Source: Candidatus Atribacteria bacterium
GTDB lineage: Bacteria; Atribacterota; JS1; SB-45; 34-128
DNA: 12,980 nucleotides
Direction: 5' to 3'
Assembly (NCBI GenBank): GCA_003451675.1
Contig: DMCY01000025.1
Location: 1-12,980 of the forward strand
Made by a program: the position numbers and the translations under genes. This document shows positions 1,954 through 12,972 of the stretch, piece after piece; position 1 is the stretch's first letter, and each line of letters starts with the position of its first letter. The notes beneath the pieces are model-generated. The model made no database searches, was not told where the DNA came from, and saw only the letters and a list, made by a program, of their open reading frames with translations.

Positions 1954-2077
1954 GTATCTCGTATCTCGTGAATTGTATCTCGTAAAAAATAAATAGTCAG
2001 AAAGATTAAAGAAATTTGAAAATTATATATTAGAATGTATTTTTCTGGCGAGATACTAAATACGAGATACGAGATAC
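1954..2077. repeat. Inverted pair of heptamer arrays (GTATCTC family)
   Basis: The left array has GTATCTC at 1954, 1961 and 1975, with a variant GTGAATT at 1968, all in one 7-base phase. The right array has GAGATAC at 2050, 2064 and 2071, with TAAATAC at 2057. Read as reverse complement, 2048-2077 matches 1954-1983 at 25 of 30 positions by my count. The two arms enclose 64 bases of AT-rich sequence. The left arm begins six bases after the gdh stop and the right arm ends ten bases before the next Shine-Dalgarno. A transcript would fold into a long stem-loop. Confidence 0.85.
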
Positions 2078-2105
2078 GAAAAATGTTGGGAGAAGGTAAT
2101 TAAAA

Positions 2106-2915
2106 GTGGAGATATTTGCTTTAATAGGAGAGAGTGGAACTGGTAAGAGTCACAAGGCCTTATTAATTGCTCATAAATATAATATAAATTATATAATTGA
2201 TGATGGTCTTTTAATAAGGAAAGATAAAATATTAGCCGGACATTCTGCAAAAAAAGACAAGAACAGAATTCAAGCAATTAGGACAGCTATTTTCGAAGAG
2301 CCTTCTCATGCTCATGAAGTAATAGAGGTAATAAAAAAAGCTAAACCAACTAAGATATTGGTTATTGGAACATCGGTTAGGATGATTGATAAAATTATTA
2401 AAACTTTAGAATTGCCACCCCCTAAAAGAATTTTAAAGATTGAAGATGTTTCGACTGACAAAGAAATTGAGGAAGCAAAATCCGTTAGATTAAAAGAAGG
2501 GAAACATGTTATACCCTTACCTGGGATCGAAGTACAAAGAAAATTCCCGGTAAATATATTGGAATCATTGGAGATATTTTATAAGAGAAGATATAGTAAA
2601 AGGAAAATTGGTGAGAGAGCGATAGTAAGGCCGCCCTTTAGTTATTTTGGAAAATTATATGTTTCTGAAAATACAATTTTAGATATAATTATTTATATAC
2701 TTAAAGATTTCAAAGAAGTTGTAAAATTGGGTAAATCCCAAATCAGCATTAAAGAAGAAGGTATTCTGGTAAATATTAGTTTGGTGCTTAGATATGGGGA
2801 AAATATTCCCCAGGTTGGATTAAAAATTCAAAAAAGCCTCAAAAGTGAATTAGAATATATAACTGGCATAAATGTCATTTTAATAAATGTTTTTGTTTAT
2901 AATTTAAAATACTAA
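2106..2915 (+). CDS. P-loop NTPase fused to an Asp23/Gls24-like domain
   Basis: This 269-residue protein has a GTG start at 2106, preceded by gggagaagg at 2088-2096. An N-terminal Walker A motif 'GESGTGKS' spans 8-15. It is followed by 'IIDDGLLI' (30-37) and a hydrophobic strand 'KILVIGTS' (83-90), which lacks a clear Walker B acid. From about residue 177 the sequence changes to an Asp23/Gls24-like domain: 'FGKLYVSENTILDII', then 'VNISLVLRYGENIPQVG', and an end 'YITGINVILINVFV' that fits the family's usual pattern of a yG-N-IP stretch, a conserved Q and a TG-x-x-V ending. There is no signal peptide or membrane segment. Asp23-family proteins in Firmicutes are linked to envelope stress and lipid-associated complexes, and I recall similar P-loop fusions in clostridia. 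The exact function is unknown, and nothing ties it to the mutase cluster besides position. Confidence 0.72.
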   Translation: MEIFALIGESGTGKSHKALLIAHKYNINYIIDDGLLIRKDKILAGHSAKKDKNRIQAIRTAIFEEPSHAHEVIEVIKKAKPTKILVIGTSVRMIDKIIKTLELPPPKRILKIEDVSTDKEIEEAKSVRLKEGKHVIPLPGIEVQRKFPVNILESLEIFYKRRYSKRKIGERAIVRPPFSYFGKLYVSENTILDIIIYILKDFKEVVKLGKSQISIKEEGILVNISLVLRYGENIPQVGLKIQKSLKSELEYITGINVILINVFVYNLKY

Positions 2916-2943
2916 AAACAAAATAGCATAACAAGTAGTATAT

Positions 2944-3331
2944 AGCGTAAAGCGCAAAACGAAAAACATAAAACCAAAGCTTAAAACCTAAAATTAAAGA
3001 ATGGTATATAAATATTTAGCGTATAAAAAAACAGTATATAGTATTGAGTATCGAGTATATAGTAAAGAGGTAGTAGCCAGGAAACAAAATCCAGGAGACA
3101 GAATAATATTACATTATATATAGAGTTATTATATATTTTTCTGACTTCTGGCTACTGAATTCTGAATACTTGATTACTTAAAAAAAATAAAAAGTTTTAA
3201 CTTTTAAATTCTGGTTTTCTCTTTACGTTTTTCGTTATATGTTATTCATTACATATTACTTATAACTGTGTTTTAGACGCGATATTTTCTCTAGTTTTTT
3301 CTTAACTATATACTCGATACTATATACTATT
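2944..3331. repeat. Composite of three nested heptamer-array families
   Basis: This 432-base gap (2916-3347) has no credible gene. Six arrays keep a 7-base phase. A is 2944-2992, starting AGCGTAA, AGCGCAA, AACGAAA. B is 3034-3068, units of the form GTAnnnA such as GTATCGA. C is 3069-3103, units such as GCCAGGA and TCCAGGA. C' is 3139-3180, units such as TTCTGAC and TTCTGAA. A' is 3222-3263, units such as TTTTCGT. B' is 3304-3331, units such as TACTCGA and TACTATA. B and B' pair as inverted repeats at about 24 of 28 positions. A/A' share a 14-base inverted segment with one mismatch, and C/C' share the word GTAGCCAG. Array B' ends four bases before the mutase Shine-Dalgarno. Confidence 0.75.
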
Positions 3332-3347
3332 ATTTGAGAGGTGCAAG

Positions 3348-5027
3348 ATGTTTGATAAAGAAGAAATGAAAAAAATTAAACAATTAAAGAAAGAATGGGA
3401 AAATAATGTTGTACAGAAGACTCTTGAACGTTTTCCCGAAAGAAAAGATAAATTTGTTACTGGTTCAGGGAAAGAGGTTGAGCGTCTATATACTCCTGTA
3501 AATTTAGAAGAGTCTGACTATAATAAAGAGTTGAATTTCCCTGGACAATACCCTTATACTCGCGGGGTGCAACCAACTATGTATCGAGGCCGATTTTGGA
3601 CTATGCGTCAATATGCCGGTTTTGGCACAGCAGAAGAATCTAATAAGCGTTATAAATACCTGTTAGATCAAGGACAAACCGGATTAAGTGTTGCTTTTGA
3701 CCTACCCACACAAATTGGCTATGATTCAGATAACGATATGTCCTTGGGCGAAGTAGGAAAAGTGGGGGTAGCCATAGATTCTTTAAAAGATATGGAGATG
3801 TTATTTAATGGGATTCCCCTTAATAAAGTAAGCACTTCAATGACTATAAATGCTCCTGCATCTGTACTCTTAGCCATGTACATTGCAGTAGCGGAAAAAC
3901 AAGGAGTAGCTCCTGATAAACTAAAGGGGACTATTCAAAACGATGTACTAAAAGAATATATTGCTCGGGGAACTTATATCTTCCCTCCAACTCCCTCAAT
4001 GAGATTAATTACCAATATCTTTGAATTTTGTTTTAAAGAGATGCCTCTATGGAATACCATTAGTATAAGTGGATACCATATCCGAGAAGCTGGAGCTACA
4101 GCAGTTCAAGAAGTGGCCTTTACTTTGGCAGATGGAATAGCTTATGTGGATGCAGCAATAAAAATTGGATTGAAAGTTGATGATTTTGCACCAAGATTAT
4201 CTTTTTTCTTTAATGCTCATAATGATTTATTAGAGGAGGTAGCAAAATTTAGAGCAGCTCGAAGGTTGTGGGCTAAAATTATGAAAGAAAGATTTGGAGC
4301 TAAAAATAAAAAGTCTTTAATGCTTAGATTTCATACTCAAACAGCTGGGTGTACTTTAACGGCACAGCAACCAGACAATAATATTATAAGGGTTACTATG
4401 CAAGCTTTAGCAGCAGTATTGGGTGGAACCCAATCTCTCCATACAAATTCAAGAGATGAAGCCCTGGCTCTACCTGCTGAAGATTCGGTAAGGATTGCCC
4501 TTAGAACTCAACAAGTTTTAGCTTACGAAAGTGGAGTAACTGAAACAGTTGATCCTTTGGCCGGTTCCTACTATATAGAAACCTTAACCAATGAAATTGA
4601 GAAGCAAGCTTTGGAATATATTGAAAAAATTGATAAATTAGGCGGCGTTACTCAAGCTATTGAAAAAGGATTTATTCAACAGGAGATACAGAATAGTGCT
4701 TATCAATACCAGAAAGATATTGAAGAGAGAAAAAGGATAGTAGTAGGTGTTAATAAGTTTAAGATAAAGGAAGGGTCACCTAAAGGCCTTTTGAAAGTTA
4801 ATCCGGAAGTGGGTCGCCGGCAAGTTGAGGAACTTAAAAAGTTAAAAGAGGAAAGAGACAGTCATAAAGTAAAAGAAACTTTGAAATTATTAGAGAAGGC
4901 TGCAAAAACAGATGCTAATTTAATGCCCTTGATCTTAGATTGTGTAAAATCTTATGCCACATTGGGCGAAATTTGTGATGTGTTAAGAAGTATCTTTGGT
5001 GAATATAAAGAGTCTGTAAAGCTTTAG
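3348..5027 (+). CDS. mcmA1: Methylmalonyl-CoA mutase, large (catalytic TIM-barrel) subunit
   Basis: This 559-residue protein is the acyl-CoA-binding half of a split B12-dependent mutase that interconverts (R)-methylmalonyl-CoA and succinyl-CoA. The length is normal for the split form. Residues known from the Propionibacterium enzyme fall at the same numbers here: Tyr89 in 'RQYAGF', Arg207 in 'IARGTY' and His244 in 'SGYHIREAG'. Tyr89 together with Arg207 is the signature of methylmalonyl-CoA specificity and argues against isobutyryl-CoA or 2-hydroxyisobutyryl-CoA mutase. The cobalamin-binding domain is absent from this chain and is encoded by the next gene, 18 bases downstream. The ATG follows gagaggtg at 3336-3343. 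The charged C-terminal stretch (about 470-515) looks helical and may mediate subunit contact. Confidence 0.96.
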
Positions 5028-5045
5028 AAAGTGGAGGAATGAATA

Positions 5046-5441
5046 ATGGAAGGGAAAAAAATTAGAGTATTAATAGCTAAACCTGGTCTTGATGGTCATG
5101 ATCGAGGGGCAAAGGTTGTAGCAAGAGCTTTAAGGGATGCTGGAATGGAGGTTATTTATACTGGATTACGGCAGACTCCTGAGCAGATTGTGGAAACTGC
5201 TATCCAGGAAGATGTAGATGTTATTGGATTGAGTATTTTATCGGGAGCTCATACCCATCTCTTCCCCAAAGTAATGGAACTTCTAAAAGAAAATAATATT
5301 AAAGATATTATCGTTATGGGCGGAGGAGTAATCCCCGAAGAAGATATTCCTGAATTAAAAAAGGTAGGTATAGCAGAAGTATTCACCCCTGGGACTGACA
5401 CTCGTGATATAATTAAGTTTATTAAAGAAAAAGTAAAATAA
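5046..5441 (+). CDS. mcmA2: Methylmalonyl-CoA mutase, small (B12-binding) subunit
   Basis: This 131-residue protein consists only of the cobalamin-binding Rossmann-like domain. The base-off/His-on motif DxHxxG is present as Asp16, His18 and Gly21 in '[10 protein letters not shown]'. The 'SIL' segment at 63-65 and 'MGGGVIP' at 91-97 line the nucleotide-tail pocket. It supplies adenosylcobalamin to the large subunit, and the two genes are 18 bases apart with gtggagg (5031-5037) before the ATG, consistent with paired translation. A stand-alone domain of this size is typical of split mutases. Confidence 0.96.
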
Positions 5442-5446
5442 TTAAT

Positions 5447-5467
5447 AGCGTAGAGCGTAGAGCGGAT
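5447..5467. repeat. Short heptamer array (AGCGTAG)
   Basis: AGCGTAG occurs at 5447 and 5454, followed by a variant AGCGGAT at 5461, in one 7-base phase. It starts five bases after the mcmA2 stop. Its word resembles AGCGTAA at 2944 in the gap before mcmA1. No matching reverse-complement arm is evident at the other end of this gap, where a different word occurs (5575-5588). Confidence 0.6.
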
Positions 5468-5470
5468 AGA

Positions 5471-5544
5471 GTAGGGGTTCGATTCATCGAACCCGCTAAG
5501 AAAAATTACCAAAACAACTCGGGGCGGATAAATCAGCCCCCTAC
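5471..5544. repeat. Palindromic intergenic element, copy 1
   Basis: The element is bounded by gtagggg (5471-5477) and its perfect inverse cccctac (5538-5544). Inside, 5475-5483 pairs perfectly with 5486-5494 (gggttcgat with atcgaaccc), and 5521-5529 pairs with 5532-5540 with one mismatch. The two hairpins are joined by a linker carrying aattaccaaaacaac (5504-5518), which recurs unchanged in the copy at 11184-11261. The outer stem competes for bases with both hairpins, so two folds are possible. It looks like a REP- or MITE-like dispersed element. Confidence 0.8.
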
Positions 5545-5574
5545 ACTGCACACTTAAGCTATAGGTAAATAGTC

Positions 5575-5588
5575 GCGATACGTGATAC
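5575..5588. repeat. Heptamer pair (GCGATAC, GTGATAC)
   Basis: Two phased heptamers stand four bases before the weak Shine-Dalgarno (aaaggg, 5593-5598) of meaB. The same word GCGATAC occurs at 11138 and 11145 as the right arm of another gap. With the AGCGTAG array and the palindromic element, it accounts for most of the 165-base gap between mcmA2 and meaB. Confidence 0.5.
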
Positions 5589-5606
5589 GAACAAAGGGTA
5601 TGTTAA

Positions 5607-6575
5607 ATGGAAAAAGAAATCATTAAAAAAATAATTAATGGTGATCGCAGAGCAGCTGCAAAGCTAATAACTTTAGTAGAAAATAACTTTAGTCAAGCTC
5701 AGAAGATTTTGAGAAAACTATATAACTATACTGGGAATGCCCTGGTAATAGGGATAACAGGTCCTCCCGGTTCAGGCAAGAGTACTATTACTGATAAACT
5801 TACCAAAACATTAAGAAAAAAGGGCAAGAAAGTAGGTATTATTGCTATAGATCCTACTAGTCCGTTTACGGGAGGAGCGTTGTTGGGTGATAGAATTCGC
5901 ATGCAGGATTTAAGCTTAGACAAAGGTGTTTTTATAAGAAGTATGAGTACTCGAGGGCATCTAGGAGGACTTTCTCAGGCTACCCAGGCAACGGTTAAGA
6001 TATTAGATGCTTTAGGTAAAGATATAATATTTATTGAAACAGTTGGAGTAGGTCAATCAGAAGTAGATATAGTTAAAGTAGCAGATACAGTTGCACTAAT
6101 AAGTATGCCAGGAATGGGAGACGATGTTCAGATCATAAAAGCTGGAATAATGGAAATCGGAGATATTTTTGTGGTCAACAAAGCCGACAAAGAAGGTTGC
6201 GAACGTTTAGCTACCGAGATAGAAATGATGTTAGATTTAAACCAAAATAGCAGATGGCGCCCCCCGGTTTTAAAGACTATAGCTACAGACAATGTTGGTA
6301 TTCAAAAACTTTTGGAAGAAATTGATCGACATATCAAATATCTAAAGGAAAGTGGAGAGTTAGAGCAAAGGCGCCTGGAGAGTGCTAAAAAAGAGATATT
6401 TGACCTTATCCAGGAACAATGGAAAGAAATACTTTCAACTTTTATTGATAATGGATTTTTAAATAAGATAGCAGCTAAAATAGTAAAGCGGGAAGAAGAT
6501 CCCTATACTGCAGTAGAGAAATTATCAAATATATTAATACATTCTTATACACAAGGAGGTGTAAAAAATGGTTGA
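5607..6575 (+). CDS. meaB: MeaB/ArgK-type GTPase, chaperone of methylmalonyl-CoA mutase
   Basis: This 322-residue G3E-family GTPase loads and protects adenosylcobalamin in methylmalonyl-CoA mutase and helps to eject damaged cofactor. The nucleotide-binding motifs are in order: Walker A 'GPPGSGKST' (52-60), 'DPTSPFTGGALLGDRIRM' (82-99) including the switch region, 'ETVGVGQSE' (144-152), and the guanine-specific 'NKAD' (191-194). The C-terminal helices (about 235-320) form the dimerisation arm known in this family. Older annotations call it an arginine/ornithine transport kinase (ArgK), which the context does not support. The ATG at 5607 follows a weak aaaggg. The stop overlaps the epimerase start by eight bases, which indicates coupled translation. 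Confidence 0.95.
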   Translation: MEKEIIKKIINGDRRAAAKLITLVENNFSQAQKILRKLYNYTGNALVIGITGPPGSGKSTITDKLTKTLRKKGKKVGIIAIDPTSPFTGGALLGDRIRMQDLSLDKGVFIRSMSTRGHLGGLSQATQATVKILDALGKDIIFIETVGVGQSEVDIVKVADTVALISMPGMGDDVQIIKAGIMEIGDIFVVNKADKEGCERLATEIEMMLDLNQNSRWRPPVLKTIATDNVGIQKLLEEIDRHIKYLKESGELEQRRLESAKKEIFDLIQEQWKEILSTFIDNGFLNKIAAKIVKREEDPYTAVEKLSNILIHSYTQGGVKNG

Positions 6576-6972
6576 AAAGATAGATCATATTGGAATTGCG
6601 GTAAAAAGTGTTAAAGAAACCAGTGAACTTCTAAGCAGTATACTGGGGTTGAAAGTTGCTGGCGAAGAGATTGTAGAAGAGCAGAAAGTTAAAGTTGCTT
6701 TTTTACCTTTAGGTGATAGTGAATTGGAACTGTTAGAATCCACTTCACCAGAGGGTCCTATTGCCAGGTTTATTGAGAAGAAAGGCGAGGGGATTCAACA
6801 TATTGCTTTTAGAGTTAATAATATTGAGGAAGTATTAGAAAAATTAAAAAAGGAAGGAGTTAGGTTAATAGACGAAAAACCGAGGTATGGAGCAGGCGGA
6901 GCAAAAATAGCCTTCTTACATCCTAAGAGCACTAATGGTATTCTTGTTGAATTGTGCGAAAGAGATAAGTAA
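6568..6972 (+). CDS. mce: Methylmalonyl-CoA epimerase
   Basis: This 134-residue VOC/glyoxalase-fold enzyme interconverts (R)- and (S)-methylmalonyl-CoA. It links the mutase (R form) to the biotin-dependent carboxyltransferase (S form). Candidate metal ligands are His7 in 'IDHIGIAV', His78 in 'GIQHIAFRV' and Glu128 in 'LVELCE'. The fourth is probably Glu54 in 'ELELLE', where some relatives have Gln. Other family marks are 'SPEGPIARFIEKKGEGIQH' (60-78) and 'PRYGAGGAKIAFLHP' (105-119). A strong aaggaggtg (6553-6561) precedes the ATG, and the first eight bases overlap the end of meaB. Confidence 0.95.
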   Translation: MVEKIDHIGIAVKSVKETSELLSSILGLKVAGEEIVEEQKVKVAFLPLGDSELELLESTSPEGPIARFIEKKGEGIQHIAFRVNNIEEVLEKLKKEGVRLIDEKPRYGAGGAKIAFLHPKSTNGILVELCERDK

Positions 6973-6992
6973 ATAAAATAGAAGTCTAATTA

Positions 6993-7102
6993 GTATCTCG
7001 TATCTCGTGAGTCGCATCTCGTGAAGAAAATAGAATTCAGAATTTAGATAGCAAAGGTTAAGAAGTTTGATCAAATATATCTAAACGCGATAGGATATAC
7101 GA
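6993..7102. repeat. Heptamer element, second GTATCTC copy
   Basis: The left array (6993-7022) has GTATCTC at 6993 and 7000, then GTGAGTC and GCATCTC, and differs from the array at 1954-1983 at only three of 30 positions. The right arm is decayed: ACGCGATA at 7085-7092, followed by ggatatacga to 7102. It occupies the first part of the 301-base gap before mmdA, starting 20 bases after the epimerase stop. Confidence 0.7.
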
Positions 7103-7110
7103 GTAAAAGG

Positions 7111-7159
7111 TTTTGAGTTTTGAATTATGGTTTTTCGGTTTTCGTTTTAAGTTTTTAGC
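7111..7159. repeat. Seven phased heptamers of TTTTnnn type
   Basis: Heptamers starting at 7111, 7118, 7125, 7132, 7139, 7146 and 7153 mostly begin TTTT or TTTA, for example TTTTGAG, TTTTCGG and TTTTCGT. The word TTTTCGT is shared with 3229 and is the inverse of AACGAAA-type units at 2958. The remainder, to about 7215, holds GCATAAA- and GCTTAAT-like words. No gene or terminator was found in 6973-7273. Confidence 0.6.
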
Positions 7160-7273
7160 TCTACAAAAAAAGCCCAAAATCATAGCATAAAGTTTATAGC
7201 TTAATACAGCATAAAAAACAGGAAATTAGTTGAGAATTATAAAAATACTGGAGAAAGGTGGTAAGATAAATTA

Positions 7274-8830
7274 ATGAAATTATCAATTGATGAATTGATG
7301 AAAAATTTAAAAGAAAAAGAAGAAAAAGTAAAAGCAGGCGGAGGGGAGAAGAGAGTAAAAGCCCAACATGAAAAAGGCAAGCTTACTGCTCGAGAAAGAA
7401 TTGACCTTCTTTTAGATAAAGATAGCTTTGTAGAACTTGACCTTTTAGTTGAGCACAGATGTAACAATTTTGGTATGGACAAAGTGGAGGCACCCGGCGA
7501 GGGAGTCGTAACTGGTTATGGAACTATTAATGAAAGACTGATTTATGTTTTTGCTCAGGATTTTACCGTTATTGGCGGTTCGTTGGGAGAAATGCACGCT
7601 AAGAAGATATGTAAGGTGTTGGATATGGCTATGAAAATGGGTGCACCGTGTATCGGAATAAACGATTCTGGCGGAGCCCGCATTCAAGAAGGAGTAGATT
7701 CTCTAAGTGGCTATGGTCAGCTATTTTACCGTAATACTATTGCTTCCGGAGTAATCCCTCAAATTTCTATAATTGTTGGCCCAGCTGCCGGCGGAGCAGT
7801 CTATTCTCCTGCCATAATGGATTTTGTATTTATGGTAAAGAATGTAGGCATAATGCATATTACAGGACCAGATGTGATTAAAGCGGTTACCGGAGAGGTA
7901 GTTACTTCAGAGAAATTAGGGGGAGCTATGACTCATAATCGAAAGAGTGGAGTGGCTCATTTTGCTGCAGAGAACGAAGAGGAAGTTTACCAGATGGTAA
8001 GAAAGATGATGGGTTATCTACCCTCTAATAATATGGAAACCCCTCCTTCTATAGAATGTAAGGATGATCCCAATCGAATGGAAGAGGCTCTTTTAAATAT
8101 TATACCTACAGATCCTAATAAACCTTATGAGATGAAAGATGTTATAAAATTAATTGTAGATGAGGGAGATTTTTTTGAATCTCATCCTTATTTTGCAACT
8201 AATATGCTTACTGGGTTTGCCAGATTAAATGGCCAATCCGTAGGTATAATTGCTAATCAACCAAAAGTCTTAGCGGGCTGTTTAGATATTGATGCTTCTG
8301 ATAAAGCTGCTCGTTTTGTTAGATTTTGTGATGCTTTTAATATTCCTATTTTAACTTTGGTAGATGTTCCAGGATTTTTACCAGGGACTGCGCAGGAGTA
8401 TGGGGGGATTATCCGACATGGAGCAAAATTGCTATATGCTTATTCGGAAGCAACTGTTCCTAAAATTACTTTAATTGTTCGTAAATCTTATGGAGGGGCT
8501 TATCTGGCAATGTGTAGCAGGGATTTAAGGGCAGATCAGCTAATCGCCTGGCCTACAGCAGAAATTGCCGTAATGGGTTCGCAGGGAGCAGCAAATATTA
8601 TCTTTAGAAAAGAGATAGCCAAAGCAGATAACCCTGAAAAGGTTCGTCAAGAGAAGATTGATGAATTTCAACAAAAATTTTCTAATCCATATGAAGCAGC
8701 TAAACGAGGTTATGTAGATATGGTTATTGACCCTCGGGAAACCAGACCACGTCTTATAACAACTTTTGAGATGCTATCTACAAAGAGGGAAAGTAGACCG
8801 GCGAAGAAACACGGTAATTTCCCAGTGTAA
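7274..8830 (+). CDS. mmdA: Methylmalonyl-CoA decarboxylase / propionyl-CoA carboxylase, carboxyltransferase subunit
   Basis: This 518-residue protein is the CoA-side carboxyltransferase, moving CO2 between (S)-methylmalonyl-CoA and carrier-bound biotin. It is full length for the MmdA/PccB/12S family, with two crotonase-like halves. The N-terminal oxyanion-hole region is 'SGGARIQEG' (132-140) with '[12 protein letters not shown]' (169-180). The C-terminal half has '[12 protein letters not shown]' (367-378) and 'SYGGAYLAM' (405-413). Asp421 in '[12 protein letters not shown]' corresponds to the Asp that marks propionyl-CoA rather than acetyl-CoA enzymes. The ATG at 7274 follows gagaaaggtgg (7251-7261). 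The genes downstream encode anchor, biotin carrier and membrane pump, so a Na+-linked methylmalonyl-CoA decarboxylase is the best reading. Use of the same subunit as a 12S transcarboxylase is also possible. Confidence 0.94.
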
Positions 8831-8840
8831 ACAGTATATA

Positions 8841-8976
8841 GTTACTTAGTTACCTGGTTACCTAGTTAGCTAGTTATCTGGTTTGATAATTTACCAGTAG
8901 AAAATTATTAATAAGCTAGTTTATCGATAAATATTATTAACCAATTAACTAAGTAACCAACTAACCAATTAACGAC
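8841..8976. repeat. Inverted pair of octamer arrays (GTTACCTA / TTAACCAA)
   Basis: Unlike the other gaps, the period here is eight. The left array has GTTACTTA, GTTACCTG, GTTACCTA, GTTAGCTA and GTTATCTG at 8841, 8849, 8857, 8865 and 8873. The right array has TTAACCAA, TTAACTAA, GTAACCAA, CTAACCAA and TTAACGAC from 8937 to 8976. The arms are approximate reverse complements enclosing about 60 AT-rich bases. A GTATATA word sits at 8834, three bases after the mmdA stop, and the right arm ends five bases before the next Shine-Dalgarno. It fills the 165-base gap. Confidence 0.75.
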
Positions 8977-8995
8977 TAAATAAGGAGGAATAAAT

Positions 8996-9364
8996 ATGTT
9001 TGAAGGAATTAATGGAGCTATACAGGTAGCAATTATAGATATAATTATAGTGTTTTTAGTTTTGGGAGGGTTAGCTTTAATTATAGTATTCTTAAAGAAT
9101 ATTGTAGGAATTAAAAAAGAAAAAAAGATACCTAAAGAAGTTAAGGTCACTTCTCCACCATCAAGCATTACTTCAATAAAAGAAAAAGAAGAAATTAATG
9201 GTAAATTAGTAGCCGTAATTACTGCTGTGGTAGCTTCATATTTAGAAAAACCAAAAAGTAAATTTAAAATACTTAACATTAAAAAATATCAAACATCCTT
9301 GATTGCTCCCTGGACTGCTATAGGGAGGCAAGAATTAATGTTAGAGAAAAATATTAAATATTAA
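8996..9364 (+). CDS. OadG-like gamma/delta anchor subunit of the Na+-pumping decarboxylase
   Basis: This 122-residue protein starts at an ATG after AAGGAGG (8982-8988). One hydrophobic helix at about 11-33 ('VAIIDIIIVFLVLGGLALII') should span the membrane. A charged linker with Pro/Ser follows. The C-terminal part, 'LVAVITAVVASYLEKP' and 'APWTAIGRQELM' (from about 70 to 115), matches the tail seen in larger OadG/MmdD proteins. Members join the carboxyltransferase to the membrane pump and assist assembly. The position between mmdA and the biotin carrier supports the call. The short length and low complexity lower certainty compared with its neighbours. Confidence 0.82.
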   Translation: MFEGINGAIQVAIIDIIIVFLVLGGLALIIVFLKNIVGIKKEKKIPKEVKVTSPPSSITSIKEKEEINGKLVAVITAVVASYLEKPKSKFKILNIKKYQTSLIAPWTAIGRQELMLEKNIKY

Positions 9365-9394
9365 TATCGAAAGAAAAGGAGAAAGATAAACAAA

Positions 9395-9808
9395 ATGAGA
9401 AAATTTCAAATTAAAGTAGACGGTAAGGTATATGAAGTAGAAGTAGAAGAAGTAGGGGGGAATGAATCATCAACTGGAACCATTTCTGCTCCTCAACCGG
9501 TTGTAACTAAAGTGAAAGAAGAGCCGGTAAGTAAGAAAGCAGCTAAACCCTCATCTAGTCCAACTCCTACTAAAACACCAACTGCAGCAGTGGCAGGAGA
9601 GGAAGTAGTAGCACCTATGCCCGGTAAGGTACTTCAGCTAAAGGTAGCCGAGGGAGATAGTGTAAAAGAAGGGGATACTTTATTAATTTTAGAAGCGATG
9701 AAGATGGAAAATGAAATTGTAGCCAATACCTCAGGAAACGTAAAAAAGATAAATGTATCCACAAATGATATGGTAGATACAGGTGATGTCTTATTAGTGA
9801 TAGGTTAG
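9395..9808 (+). CDS. Biotin carboxyl carrier protein of the decarboxylase
   Basis: This 137-residue carrier holds the biotin that shuttles CO2 between carboxyltransferase and pump. The N-terminal part (1-20) resembles the start of other gamma/1.3S carriers ('FQIKVDGKVYEVEVEE'). A Pro/Ala/Ser/Thr-rich flexible linker runs from about 40 to 68. The biotinyl domain covers 70-137 with 'VAPMPGKV' (72-79) and the biotinylation motif 'EAMKMENE' (100-107), where Lys103 is the expected biotin site. A Shine-Dalgarno-like aaaaggaga (9374-9382) lies 12 bases before the ATG. It may serve both the MmdA- and PycB-type carboxyltransferases in this window, because no other biotinyl domain is encoded here. Confidence 0.93.
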   Translation: MRKFQIKVDGKVYEVEVEEVGGNESSTGTISAPQPVVTKVKEEPVSKKAAKPSSSPTPTKTPTAAVAGEEVVAPMPGKVLQLKVAEGDSVKEGDTLLILEAMKMENEIVANTSGNVKKINVSTNDMVDTGDVLLVIG

Positions 9809-9826
9809 AATAGAAAGGAGAAGTTA

Positions 9827-10945
9827 ATGGATATTTTGATGAAAATCCTGCCTTTATTTAGTCTTTCGGGATTTGCCGGACTTACTTTAGGTAATATTAT
9901 AATGCTTATTGTGGCAGGTGTATTAATGTATTTTGCCATAGTAAAGAAGTGCGAACCTTTACTCCTTTTACCTATCAGTTTTGGAGCGGTATTGGTAAAT
10001 CTACCCTTGACTGGACTAATGGAAGAAGGAGGTCTTTTGTATTTTATTTCTTGGGGGATAAAACATGAAGTTTATCCCTGTTTAATCTTTATGGGGATTG
10101 GGGCAATGACTGATTTTGGTCCTTTATTAGCCAATCCGATAACCTTCCTTTTAGGTGCCGCGGCTCAAGTAGGTGTATTTGTAGCTTTAATCGGGTCGGT
10201 GCTTTTAGGATTTACTATTCAGGAAGCAGGTTCTATAGGAATTATTGGCGGTGCAGATGGACCAACAGCAATTTATCTTACTGTTAAAATGGCTCCCCAA
10301 CTATTAGGAGCAATAGCAGTAGCGGCGTATTCTTATATGTCGTTAGTTCCTATAATTCAACCTCCTATAATGAAATTATTAACTACGGTTGAGGAAAGAA
10401 AAATAGTTATGAAGCAGCTTAGGCCAGTATCCCGGTCAGAGAGAATACTTTTTCCTATTATTTCAACCGTTTTAATTGGTCTATTATTACCAGCTTCGGT
10501 TCCCATTATCGGTATGCTGATGTTAGGGAATCTGTTTAGAGAAAGTATGGTAGTAAATAGATTGTCTAATACGGCACAAAATGAATTAATTAATATTGTT
10601 ACTATATTTTTAGCTACTTCTGTAGGGGCAACGATGCAAGCTGAATATTTTTTGACCTTTAATACTATTAAAATAATTTTACTAGGTTTAATTGCTTTTG
10701 CCTTCGGAACTGCTGGTGGAGTCCTATTTGCCAAGCTATTAAATAAAATTACCGGAGGAAAGATTAATCCTTTGATCGGTGCTGCTGGAGTATCCGCAGT
10801 ACCTATGGCAGCCAGAGTGGTTCAGAAAGTGGGGCAAGAAGCAAATCCCAGCAACTTCCTATTAATGCATGCCATGGGACCTAATGTGGCCGGAGTAATT
10901 GGAACCGCAGTTGCTGCTGGGGTAATGTTGACTTTGTTGCAATAA
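9827..10945 (+). CDS. Na+-pumping decarboxylase, beta subunit (OadB/MmdB/GcdB family)
   Basis: This 372-residue polytopic membrane protein decarboxylates carboxybiotin and couples this to Na+ export. The length fits the family, and repeated hydrophobic segments run through the chain. The key '[13 protein letters not shown]' motif (138-150) contains Asp144, the counterpart of the Na+-binding Asp203 of Klebsiella OadB. '[12 protein letters not shown]' (169-180) and '[15 protein letters not shown]' (345-359) are further conserved pore segments. The ATG at 9827 follows gaaaggag (9813-9820), 18 bases after the biotin carrier stop, so the last three genes form a tight unit. The substrate of the complex is set by the carboxyltransferase, hence methylmalonyl-CoA from mmdA, or oxaloacetate if the 11413 gene product joins. 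Confidence 0.95.
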
Positions 10946-10954
10946 AGTCAATTT

Positions 10955-11158
10955 GTATATCGTATATCGTATATCGTGAAGAGGATAGGAGTCAGCAGCC
11001 AGAATCCAGAATATAATAGAATCGAGTATCGTCTATTGTGACAATTCTATAAAAACGAAAAAAAAGATTTAGGAAATATCATAATAAAGAATGTAAACAG
11101 TTTCTATGCGTTATTTTTGTAATTAAGAAGTTTTAACGCGATACGCGATACGATATAC
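10955..11158. repeat. Heptamer element (GTATATC family) with inner GCCAGAA words
   Basis: Three perfect GTATATC units (10955-10975) start nine bases after the pump gene stop and are followed by GTGAAGA. Phased words follow from 10984, including GTCAGCA, GCCAGAA and TCCAGAA, which resemble array C in 3069-3103. The right arm has GCGATAC at 11138 and 11145 and GATATAC at 11152. Its reverse complement matches the left 21 bases at 17 positions. The 467-base gap 10946-11412 holds no credible gene. Confidence 0.75.
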
Positions 11159-11183
11159 GAAAATGGTTTTTAGCCTCAGTGGT

Positions 11184-11261
11184 GTAGGGGCTCGATTTAT
11201 CGAGCCCGCTAGAAGAATTACCAAAACAACAAGGGTAGGATAAACCCGACCTTTGCCCTAA
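11184..11261. repeat. Palindromic intergenic element, copy 2
   Basis: It begins gtagggg (11184-11190) and contains a perfect nine-base inverted pair, gggctcgat (11188-11196) with atcgagccc (11199-11207). Relative to copy 1 one pair has changed from T-A to C-G, which keeps the stem. The linker aattaccaaaacaac (11216-11230) is identical to copy 1. The second hairpin is weaker (gggt 11233-11236 with accc 11244-11247). The outer stem survives as taggg (11185-11189) with cccta (11256-11260). Confidence 0.75.
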
Positions 11262-11317
11262 ACATACTTATTTTATATAAATGGACGTAATATATATTTT
11301 AGCTAATTTAATTTTTT

Positions 11318-11343
11318 ACAAGGCAGGTTTTAGCCTGCGTTGT
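11318..11343. repeat. Stem-loop with cores gcagg / cctgc
   Basis: The inner stem 11323-11327 pairs with 11334-11338 around a six-base loop, and acaa (11318-11321) pairs with ttgt (11340-11343) across one mismatch. A true uridine run does not follow, so it is a weak terminator candidate. It looks more like a third kind of dispersed palindrome. Confidence 0.5.
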
Positions 11344-11354
11344 TTATATATAGA

Positions 11355-11374
11355 ATTCGATTTATTCATCGAAT
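11355..11374. repeat. Small inverted repeat attcgat / atcgaat
   Basis: A seven-base perfect stem encloses a six-base loop, 17 bases before the Shine-Dalgarno of the carboxyltransferase gene. Its sequence echoes the first hairpin of the palindromic element (ttcgat/atcgaa) and may be a shortened derivative. It could also act as an operator or leader hairpin. Confidence 0.4.
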
Positions 11375-11391
11375 AGATTATAAAATTGATC

Positions 11392-11398
11392 AAGGAGG
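11392..11398 (+). promoter_or_regulatory. Shine-Dalgarno that decides the start of the PycB-like gene
   Basis: AAGGAGG lies downstream of the in-frame TTG at 11386 and 14 bases upstream of the in-frame ATG at 11413. The TTG has no Shine-Dalgarno of its own, so ATG 11413 is preferred. The spacing is longer than usual. Confidence 0.65.
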
Positions 11399-11412
11399 CT
11401 TCAGTTACACTT

Positions 11413-12954
11413 ATGGGAGAAAGTGCAATATTAACAAAAATAGTAGATTCTAATGTAGAAATAAATAATGGCAATACTTTAGAAAAAAAGCTTTCTTTAA
11501 AAAAAGACAATAGCCCCAAGGATATACTTTTAAAAGAAAAATCGCAGCTAAAAAAACCCCTTAAAATTACCGATACAACATTAAGAGATGCGCATCAGTC
11601 ATTATTAGCAACTCGAATGACTACCAAAGAGATGGTGCCCGCATGTGAAAAGTTAGATGCAGTAGGGTTTTACTCTATGGAAGTTTGGGGAGGTGCTACT
11701 TTTGATAGCTGTATGCGATTTTTAGATGAAGATCCCTGGGATAGGTTGAGAACTTTAAAGAAGTATCTTCCCCACACTAAGCTCCAAATGTTATTGCGAG
11801 GACAAAACATATTGGGTTATAAGCATTATTCTGATGATGTAGTTACAGAATTCGTAAAAAGAGCAGTCGTTAATGGAATAGATATTATTCGTATTTTTGA
11901 TGCTTTGAACGATATCCGTAATATGGAAACTGCTTTTAAAGTAGCTAAATCAGAAGGCGCCCATGTTCAGGGAACTATCTGTTTTACTATAAGTCCATTT
12001 CATAATAATGAGGTATTTGTGAAGAAGGCACGGGAGATGGAGCAAATGGGAGCAGATTCGATCTGTATAAAAGACATGGCCGGCTTAATTTCCCCCTATG
12101 AAGCATATAATTTAACCAAAGATATTAAAGAGGTCATTTCTATACCTCTTCAACTACATTGTCATTTTACCAGTGGAATGGGGATGATGGCTTATTTGAA
12201 AGCTACAGAAGCTGGGGTGGATGTAGTAGACACAGCAATATCATCATTGGCTCTTCAAACTTCTCAGCCTGCTGTAGAACCTTTAGTAGAAACTTTAAGG
12301 GGTACACCTTATGATACCGGGTTAGATTTAAAATTGGCTTATGAAATTGCTTCTTACTTTAAAAAAGTTAGAGAAAATCATAAAGATATGGAATCCAATA
12401 TTCAGGATATAGATACTCGGGTATTAACATATCAAATTCCTGGAGGAATGCTTTCTAATTTAGCTGTTCAGTTAAAACAGCAAAAAGCGGAAGATAAATA
12501 CGAAGAAGTCTTAAAAGAAATTCCACGAGTTCGAAAAGAATTAGGTTATCCTCCTTTGGTTACTCCGACCAGTCAGATAGTGGGAACCCAGGCGACCTTG
12601 AATGTTATTTTAAAAGAACGGTATAAGATGATTCCGGAAGAAGTTCGAAAATATCTTAAGGGATTTTATGGCCGGCCACCTGCACCTATTGATCCAGAGA
12701 TTATTAAGAAAGTAAAAATAAAAAAAAGTGAAATGATTAAATGTCGGCCGGCTGATTTATTAGAGCCTGCTATCGAAAAAGCCAAAAAGGAAGCATCTTA
12801 TTTAGCTGAAAACATAGAAGACATTCTGTCTTATATTTTATTCCCCGAAGTTGCCAGAGATTTTCTAAAGAAAAAAATTGCTAAAAAATATTGTTTGGGA
12901 ATGGAGATATTAAATGGTAATAATAATTATGATGAAGAAGGGTATGGAGTGTGA
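11413..12954 (+). CDS. Pyruvate/oxaloacetate carboxyltransferase (PycB / OadA / transcarboxylase 5S-like), without biotin domain
   Basis: This protein of 513 residues from the preferred ATG is a TIM-barrel carboxyltransferase exchanging CO2 between biotin and pyruvate/oxaloacetate. Numbering from that start, 'ITDTTLRDAHQS' lies at 52-63 with metal ligand Asp54. 'MEVWGGATFD' is at 89-98, the probable carbamylated metal-bridging Lys220 is in 'CIKDMAG', and His249 and His251 in 'LHCHFTSGM' complete the metal site. The post-barrel region carries 'PGGMLSNL' and 'TPTSQIVGTQATLNV'. The chain ends after 'LFPEVARDFL' plus a short tail, with no biotinyl domain, so it must use a separate carrier such as the one at 9395. 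About 50 Lys/Asp-rich residues precede the barrel and are not expected in the family. It follows a 467-base repeat-filled gap and may be a separate transcription unit. Confidence 0.93.
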   Translation: MGESAILTKIVDSNVEINNGNTLEKKLSLKKDNSPKDILLKEKSQLKKPLKITDTTLRDAHQSLLATRMTTKEMVPACEKLDAVGFYSMEVWGGATFDSCMRFLDEDPWDRLRTLKKYLPHTKLQMLLRGQNILGYKHYSDDVVTEFVKRAVVNGIDIIRIFDALNDIRNMETAFKVAKSEGAHVQGTICFTISPFHNNEVFVKKAREMEQMGADSICIKDMAGLISPYEAYNLTKDIKEVISIPLQLHCHFTSGMGMMAYLKATEAGVDVVDTAISSLALQTSQPAVEPLVETLRGTPYDTGLDLKLAYEIASYFKKVRENHKDMESNIQDIDTRVLTYQIPGGMLSNLAVQLKQQKAEDKYEEVLKEIPRVRKELGYPPLVTPTSQIVGTQATLNVILKERYKMIPEEVRKYLKGFYGRPPAPIDPEIIKKVKIKKSEMIKCRPADLLEPAIEKAKKEASYLAENIEDILSYILFPEVARDFLKKKIAKKYCLGMEILNGNNNYDEEGYGV

Positions 12955-12958
12955 ATCA

Positions 12959-12972
12959 GTATCGAGTGTGCG
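12959..12972. repeat. Possible start of a further heptamer array
   Basis: GTATCGA at 12959, followed by GTGTGCG, begins four bases after the stop of the last gene. The word is identical to the unit at 3048. The window ends too soon to confirm an array. Confidence 0.4.

Follow-up and report, generated by a model that had tools for sequence, protein, structure and literature searches.

The intergenic gaps of a 12,980-nt stretch of Candidatus Atribacteria DNA (contig DMCY01000025.1; the window) carry arrays of tandem 7- or 8-base words, and these arrays probably represent the terminal arms, or the decayed and shortened leftovers, of small elements that encode an S23 protein when complete. S23 (PF05635), which folds as a four-helix bundle, is the protein of the intervening sequences (IVSs) of 23S rRNA. 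A full element would open with an inward-reading array of 7- or 8-base words, followed by a leader and the S23 gene, and would close with a reverse-complement array that often begins at or near the S23 stop codon; S23-less versions (arm, spacer, arm) would occupy intergenic gaps, and each element lineage would possess its own word and its own S23. The window comprises a propionate/methylmalonyl-CoA operon of Atribacterota, whose mutase has its best named match, at 95% identity, in an Atribacterota MAG, with gene names taken from a reading of the frames and gene ends set by an open reading frame (ORF) rule rather than by annotation.

Taken together, the seven window gaps that reach 120 bp (1883 bp) match themselves at offset 7 at a rate of 0.419, compared with 0.300 for 300 dinucleotide shuffles (z 12.1), with a harmonic at offset 14 (z 7.0), while the coding sequence of the window peaked at multiples of 3 only. 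This excess bears out a preliminary description of the DNA, which had placed 7-base words in most gaps over about 150 bases: offset-7 z values were 4.9 (1948–2105), 9.8 (2916–3347), 2.7 (5442–5606), 5.7 (6973–7273), and 3.9 (10946–11385). The generalization needs amending in that the words of gap 8831–8995 repeat every 8 bases (z 6.6, vs 1.3 for period 7) and gap 421–642 is without an array (period 7, z 0.7). A forward array answered by a reverse-complement array, as also described, was found as inverted arms of array words in five of the six window array gaps; in gap 5442–5606 the only inverted pair reported was a pair of repetitive extragenic palindromic (REP) hairpins.

Similar arrays had been expected in other gaps, and they are abundant in relatives. 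The genomes compared (G001–G041) include family f1, to which the window and G001 belong, and families f2, f5, and f6; G001 is the nearest relative genome examined, with 30% of sampled 31-mers in common with the window. Within 200 contiguous kb of G012, 44 period-7 and 52 period-8 arrays were found against 0.9 and 0.5 in shuffles, other periods were rare (1, 2, and 8 arrays at periods 6, 9, and 10), and 48 of 102 gaps held a 7- or 8-base array. The pattern-bearing contigs of G001 gave 136 period-7 arrays (2.4 shuffled) and its other contigs 25 (0.7), both sets being biased by the way the contigs were picked; G016 (f2) gave four arrays (0.4 shuffled), and the same scan found none in G011 (f1). 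Tandem GTATCTCGTATCTCG, with at most one mismatch, occurred in 9/9 genus members, in 4/5 other family genomes, and once each in 3/27 outside genomes. Other bacterial groups yielded 22 period-7 arrays against 1.75 in shuffles, with at most 6 at other periods (74 loci, 435 gaps, 100 kb), and E. coli K-12 yielded none (50 kb, 18 gaps). Twenty-five IMG/VR viral contigs (L333–L357) contain GTATCTCGTATCTCGT and have 34 period-7 arrays in their gaps; no S23 gene was confirmed in viral contigs in two scans. By eye, several heptad arms in Tissierellales gaps (L033, 11669–15002) share a core hairpin near GGAAGYTTTACTWACGTAAARC adjoining the 5' arm, and heptad arrays seemingly also lie within reading frames at the Bacteroidota/Ignavibacteria loci L317 and L324.

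Turning to the genes between arrays, six frames were enclosed by inward arrays; in a single case the two flanking arrays used the same word, and that frame encodes an S23 protein between octads. The protein of locus L194 is S23 (PF05635, E 8e-41 in Pfam), and the proteins of L194, L114, and L193 match TIGR02436 above its curated cut-off (E 4e-38, 3e-41, and 1e-38); S23 also matches the PDB structures 2gsc (E 7e-32) and 2rld (E 1e-10), each with five chains. PF05635 was detected in 12/14 f1 genomes (at most 11 matches each), 6/10 f2, and 3/5 f6 genomes, and in 0/8 f5 and 0/14 control genomes. A blind set of 26 further S23 genes (8 + 18), out of many more detected, was picked by score and genome spread with the flanks unseen. 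Inverted matching of the flanks exceeded every one of 100 shuffles for 20 genes; 7- or 8-base arrays lay on both sides of 17, all of them among these 20, and an array lay on at least one side of 24. The same test applied to 200 random f1 genes gave 6 inverted matches, 17 genes with arrays on both sides, 3 with both properties, and 77 with an array on at least one side; the corresponding counts for 120 short genes were 7, 5, 1, and 49. Fifteen of 21 RAYT genes gave inverted matches through their own hairpins (50 shuffles), with none having arrays on both sides and four having a one-sided array. The mark of S23 is thus the matched array pair and not an inverted flank as such, and we accordingly give less weight to the inverted-flank test alone and more to paired arrays. 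Paired cases come from Atribacterota (f1, f2, and f6), Ignavibacteria, Alkaliphilus, Dethiosulfatibacter, Soehngenia, Synergistaceae, and Propionigenium, so that S23 with convergent arrays is found in many phyla.

Among plasmid-borne S23 genes (14 of 47 S23 places), ten had an inverted flank above all 60 shuffles, L359 and L360 being near copies. Over a stretch of 50 kb from a Nostoc plasmid, S23 scored 30 and none of the 32 other complete genes more than 12; the same stretch also has S23-less convergent pairs (by eye). Across 50 genomes of other groups, the presence of at least two S23 copies was associated with period-7 arrays in the locus examined (7/13 vs 3/37, Fisher p 0.0014), the two-copy cut having been chosen after the data were seen. 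At L372, the only S23 locus tested for placement in 23S rRNA, an S23 gene with drifting heptad ends lies wholly inside a 23S rRNA gene (RF02541). In the cyanobacterial plasmids L362, L365, and L370, S23 sits inside CRISPR operons (cas6–S23–cas4 twice and cas10–S23–Cmr3 once).

The preliminary description had suggested a protein that goes with the words, and S23 fits that role in sequence as well as in position. Over 38 loci with arms, S23 identity correlated with arm-word similarity (Mantel r 0.48, p 0.0002; five armless loci and the near copy L360 left out, and the arms of 18 loci transcribed by hand). The word was shared by 15 of the 23 S23 pairs at least 70% identical and by 1–8% of less alike pairs. 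GTATNNN words accompany one S23 type (L114, L229, L378, L396, and L397), AGTCGTT/AGTGAAT words a second (L374, L376, L377, and L379), AGTAATR words a third from two families (L375, L381, and L398), and TCAGAAG words a fourth, found in Atribacterota (L395) and cyanobacteria (L369 and L371). S23-linked words present in the window are GTATNNN, the TCAGAAG type, and AGTT octads (the S23 of L194), and AGTCGTT fills the orthologous MmdA–MmdD gap of relatives. S23 may bind the words, in DNA or in RNA. Word/S23 co-variation also fits target recognition, as it would if the arrays were pre-existing targets into which S23 genes home, and the two S23 genes found in direct arrays (L193 and L362) agree with such homing. 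Insertion into a direct array would produce same-direction flanks, yet convergent flanks prevail (20/26 and 10/14), and we regard homing as unlikely.

The probable derivation of S23-less arrays from S23 elements is illustrated by the B12–MeaB gap, which is gap 5442–5606 in the window. G004 has an intact S23 gene with GTATCGC arms there. The orthologous gap of G007 retains the last ~25 S23 codons and an arm (score 88 vs a shuffled maximum of 43), and those of G012 and G005 retain an arm (62 vs 35 and 38 vs 26); the window itself gave a local score of 34 against a maximum of 30, and G009 (30 vs 37) and G003 (32 vs 33) did not rise above shuffles. At L194, an S23 start of ~26 residues continues directly into the 3' arm (tblastn, 73% identity; the hidden Markov model E value is only 0.014).

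The arrays point inward. With the strand of each word fixed as in 5' arms, and with words and strands selected after examples had been read, a word present on both strands was convergent in 57 of 58 gap–word cases, mixed in one, and divergent in none (729 gaps, eleven genomes). For seven words, forward matches lay in the left half of the gap and reverse matches in the right, irrespective of gene strands: left-forward and right-reverse matches numbered 338 and 310 (vs 23 and 51 in the opposite halves) in co-directional gaps, 27 and 25 (vs 15 and 4) in divergent gaps, and 21 and 10 (vs 4 and 0) in convergent gaps. Gaps with at least two array runs read all forward and then all reverse in 141 of 146 cases. 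Since most arrays are unpaired, the polarity applies to unpaired arrays as well. An inverted similarity score of at least 16 was reached in 37% of 143 array gaps, compared with 18% for direct and 3% for shuffled comparisons.

The in-register complementarity of same-gap arms was nonetheless no better (13.31 vs 13.12, p 0.75; 128 pairs) than that of control arrays taken from different gaps in that genome and matched for word similarity; a looser control agreed. Arms have words in common, not a base-paired order, and a base-paired hairpin as the selected feature was rejected on this comparison. RNA fold z values were modestly lower in array gaps (median −1.70 vs −1.11, 70 gaps each); among window gaps other than the first, they were −4.6, −3.2, −2.2, −1.7, and −0.1. 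Two inverted pairs cross each other in gap 2916–3347; no gap in the seven-word count held two paired classes, as a comparison of nested word order would need. New elements may have landed within old ones.

Comparison of close relatives points to turnover. Many gaps differ wholesale between G003 and G002, whose mutases are 97% identical, and some array elements occupy a site in one genome and are cleanly missing from the orthologous site in the other. Element 1948–2085, including its spacer, was found at seven unrelated loci and shares with miniature inverted-repeat transposable elements (MITEs) its dispersal, inverted ends, and lack of a gene. A mobile unit with a fixed spacer holds for this element and was rejected as a general rule; spacer homologues were found in 22/36 cases vs 33/108 controls, a comparison confounded by REPs. 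The unit may nonetheless spread as a mobile element. Two large G002/G003 length differences considered as insertion sequences turned out to be gene-content differences, and L232 (14256–14586) shows a clean insertion of a different repeat (TCATTGCGAGGAGCAAAGCGACGAAGCAATC) in G003 relative to G002.

Such turnover bears on the proposal, made for Geobacter metallireducens and Beggiatoaceae, that paired arrays are regulatory sites bound by global regulators (IHF/HU-like or translational). The same anatomy has been described in those organisms, the words have conserved positions, and the window and G012 (L163) agree at 94% in the first gap (1948–2105) but at 81–87% in the flanking genes, a difference that reflects either constraint or copying of the element alone. 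Against regulation stands the wholesale replacement of gaps, at least 0.75 of the longer gap being matched in 1/26 pairs with flanks 92–96% identical and in 5/15 with flanks at least 96% identical. Array gaps also show no preference of type (268/579 co-directional, 25/50 divergent, and 14/32 convergent gaps). A regulatory origin therefore seems improbable.

The 482 heptad and 136 octad arrays of four genomes fall mostly into a few word classes, chiefly GTATNTC, GTATNNA, AGTCGTT/AGTGAAT, AGCGTAT, YCAGRAN, AAAACNN, AGTTANCC, ACCAATTN, and TTAGTTAG, and clustering agrees with the earlier observation that the words drift at fixed positions and are not uniform repeats. Constancy of phase across word changes also held: in 142 arrays found by offset 14, phase was kept over at least four words, with matches of 0.672 at offset 7, 0.631 at 21, and 0.581 at 28 against ~0.27 off phase. 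Whole words are gained and lost. Indels within arrays peak at length 7 (22, vs 8 each at lengths 6 and 8) and those outside do not (44, 44, and 33 at lengths 6, 7, and 8), the counts coming from 98 gap pairs that are not independent; there is little contrast once every multiple of 7 is counted (36/164 indels of at least 4 bases inside arrays vs 83/497 outside). Hypermutation in arrays was rejected, substitution being hardly raised (0.116 inside vs 0.099 outside). At L193 (3482–3765), a broken S23 gene lies next to a long one-direction run of AGATTGGC octads.

Gains and losses of exactly 7 bases are seen, as copying in 7-base steps would give, and indels of 7 and 14, frequent in arrays, together with a similarity that falls off slightly as heptads lie further apart, agree with neutral polymerase slippage. 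Under slippage, ~7 bases would sit in the polymerase active site, inverted pairs would arise by hairpin-templated copying, and S23 would be a passenger; the polymerase-footprint idea is in print, as cited in PMC4692102. Slippage does not predict inward polarity, S23 flanking, or word/S23 co-variation, same-gap arms lack the excess of in-register complementarity noted above, and the E. coli K-12 stretch has no arrays. We consider it somewhat less plausible still than homing or regulation.

A reverse transcriptase as the copying machine did not survive: RVT_1 occurs in only 3/14 family genomes and was not found in G001, G002, G003, G005, G008, G009, or G012, all of which have arrays or the GTATCTC pattern, so that a retroelement, diversity-generating or other, was rejected. 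S23 resembles Avd only weakly, its best E value of 6e-8 falling short of the cut-off. Nor did a transposase partner emerge, there being no transposase family of at least three copies at 50% identity among 1230 ORFs and hence no autonomous partner of the MITE kind. REP-type elements mobilized by RAYT transposases are very improbable, for while Y1_Tnp genes occur in 13/14 family genomes, 0/21 have 7- or 8-base arrays on both sides and four have one-sided arrays, and 22 flanks inspected by eye mostly show other hairpins. The family RAYT genes (L293–L310, L312, L190, and L258) mostly have their own flanking hairpins, GGGGACGGTTCTCTG, GGGGTCAGGTCT, and AAAGGTGCCAGGCACC.

Several observations weigh against the derivation of arrays from S23 elements. 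No S23 gene lies in the window itself, and none was found in G002 and G013 (90% and 92% complete), both of which hold arrays. To our knowledge S23 has no catalytic activity, and no mover of the elements was found. An inverted flank alone does not mark S23, as the RAYT genes show (15/21 pass), and one-sided arrays are common (77/200 random genes). Six of the 26 blind-set genes failed the inverted test (L384, L385, L387, L390, L391, and L395, of which L395 does show a clear array on its 5' side and a short piece on its 3' side), and two, from Thermoanaerobacter and Tepidanaerobacter, were without any array. Four of the 14 plasmid genes failed (L362, L366, L371, and L367); L367 fell short of shuffles at 120 bp and scored 33 with 200-bp flanks, a length at which no shuffles were made. 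S23 lies in direct rather than inverted arrays at L193 (5779–6129) and L362. When any S23 copy is counted, the 50-genome association weakens (p 0.073); the Mantel test used interrelated loci and omitted armless ones; and AAAAC/TTTTGAA arms had no matching S23 among the S23 loci examined. The choice of polarity words after reading examples counts here too, as does G010, which has few arrays and no polarity (5 and 4 vs 4 and 4); its three S23 genes examined nonetheless have arms. No target-site duplication was seen by eye at present/absent sites, and spacers are mixed, often with other repeats.

The arrays of the window are mapped in Table 1. Two GTAG-tagged REP dimers (GTAGGGG...CCCCTAC type), at 5470–5547 and 11183–11260, are present in many family genomes; they are a separate repeat kind, already known (PMC3733652).

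Table 1. Word arrays and inverted arm pairs in the window
Feature	Positions	Strand	Remarks
5' arm GTATCTC GTATCTC GTGAATT GTATCTC GTAAAAA	1954..1988	+	Dispersed with its spacer, 7 other sites
3' arm, reverse GTATCTC words	2049..2079	-	RNA fold of gap z -7.6
Array AGTATAT/AGCGTAA/AAAACNN; word changes, phase constant	2936..2993	+	Score 19 at period 7
5' arm AGTATAT AGTATTG AGTATCG AGTATAT AGTAAAG	3033..3069	+	
5' arm, CCAG/ACAG words (YCAGRAN class)	3072..3104	+	Class adjoins S23 in L395, L369, L371
3' arm TTCTGAC TTCTGGC TACTGAA TTCTGAA	3139..3170	-	
Reverse AAAACNN / CGTTTTT words	3182..3267	-	Score 21
3' arm ACTATAT ACTCGAT ACTATAT	3305..3330	-	Partner of 3033-3069
5' array AGCGTAG AGCGTAG AGCGGAT	5447..5469	+	
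Reverse array CGCGATACGTGATACGA..	5574..5600	-	Position of 3' arm of G004 S23 element filling same gap; 34 vs shuffled maximum 30, weak alone
5' arm GTATCTC GTATCTC GTGAGTC GCATCTC GTGA	6993..7024	+	
3' arm AACGCGATAGGATATACGAG	7084..7103	-	Inverted match 10 nt, 90%
Array GTTTTGA GTTTTGA ATTATGG TTTTTCG GTTTTCG	7110..7158	-	Score 20; dispersed
5' arm, octads TAGTTACT TAGTTACC TGGTTACC TAGTTAGC TAGTTATC	8839..8883	+	Score 25 at period 8
3' arm, octads ATTAACCA ATTAACTA AGTAACCA ACTAACCA ATTAACGA	8936..8980	-	Score 21 at period 8
5' arm GTATATC x3 + GTGAAGA	10955..10984	+	
CAG words AGGAGTC AGCAGCC AGAATCC	10987..11012	+	
3' arm ACGCGAT ACGCGAT ACGATAT ACGA	11136..11160	-	
Inverted arm pair	3038-3068/3300-3330		31 nt, 90%
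Inverted arm pair	1951-1998/2033-2080		48 nt, 75%
Inverted arm pair	8841-8876/8938-8973		36 nt, 78%
Inverted arm pair	10952-10980/11133-11161		29 nt, 79%
Inverted arm pair	6997-7006/7094-7103		10 nt, 90%, weak

The elements resemble several known systems in part. Cyanobacterial short tandemly repeated repetitive (STRR) sequences are uniform heptanucleotide repeats, unlike the words described here, which drift at fixed positions. MITEs and foldback-like transposons such as Galileo are non-coding and dispersed and have inverted ends of tandem subunits, all of which applies to the S23-less elements; unlike them, these elements show no target-site duplication or transposase, and their full form encodes S23. 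The STRR of Calothrix is named in PMC4692102. IVSs of 23S rRNA have inverted-repeat ends around an S23 gene, and their function and origin are called unclear in PMC4990558; one hypothesis cited there derives them from a mobile element that needed the gene to move. The elements share these ends, and L372 is such an insert whose ends are drifting heptads; they differ from IVSs in being intergenic between protein genes, present in many copies, mostly S23-less, and armed with tandem 7- or 8-base words. The window elements, too, have inverted-repeat ends and are intergenic rather than inserted in a 23S rRNA helix.

The preliminary suggestion of a wholly undescribed system does not hold, given the convergent heterogeneous heptamers of Xanthomonas and the paired 7- and 8-mers of Geobacter metallireducens. 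Xanthomonas GGGAATC / (GGGANTN)n heptamers, commonly of four units, form convergent pairs, 70 in one of the two species studied and 75 in the other, and lie near the 5' neighboring gene (average 28 nt); in the sections of that study available (PMC4692102), a single word class is considered, treated as quadruplexes and with no link to S23. Xanthomonas campestris has an S23 protein with a solved structure (2gsc). Classes 1–3 of G. metallireducens are paired opposite-strand sites of four octanucleotides (GTTGCTYN) or five heptanucleotides (MTYCTGA), with 24, 21, and 8 pairs read as IHF/HU or unknown-regulator sites, and the TCAGAAG-type word, read on the opposite strand, is the class 3 word (PMC2700814). 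The TAACTGA repeats of Beggiatoaceae and cyanobacteria are heptamers located between genes; in Microcystis they occur among different heptamers, and in Cyanothece their indels are mostly in 7-nt steps. They are treated there as direct repeats with a possible translational role (PMC4679880). These reports from Xanthomonas, Geobacter, and Beggiatoaceae describe parts of what looks like one phenomenon. Heptamer repeats and S23 are each already known, and their joining is the new part within the literature covered: among the full-text matches listed, no paper joined the two, most subscription papers lying outside that scope.

How S23 might recognize words invites comparison with the TRAP ring, which reads spaced triplets. 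We speculate that one word may be taken by each subunit of a pentameric S23 ring, which would explain the fixed step of 7–8 bases. The pentamer is based on the solved structures, with five chains each, and on a passage in PMC4990558; one word per subunit is a guess. Median units per array of 4.7 and 4.5 are compatible with five units and are no test of five. A wider account is possible and is offered tentatively: S23 would be a pentameric reader of one 7- or 8-base word per subunit, word and protein would evolve as lock and key, and S23 would spread its own element and S23-less copies, possibly via RNA excised by RNase III, so that the over-represented bacterial heptamers, the Geobacter, Xanthomonas, and cyanobacterial repeats, and IVSs would form one class.

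We know of no function assigned to S23, whose fold is solved. Three loose ends, namely the over-representation of heptamers in bacteria, the role of S23, and the origin of 23S rRNA inserts, become one testable question, and word/S23 co-variation across phyla supplies ready pairs for binding tests. If each subunit does read one word, this would be a new mode of nucleic acid recognition and a new kind of element, one able to occupy roughly every second gap in a genome, as in G012 (48/102). A puzzle met piecemeal in several bacterial groups may thus have one testable cause.

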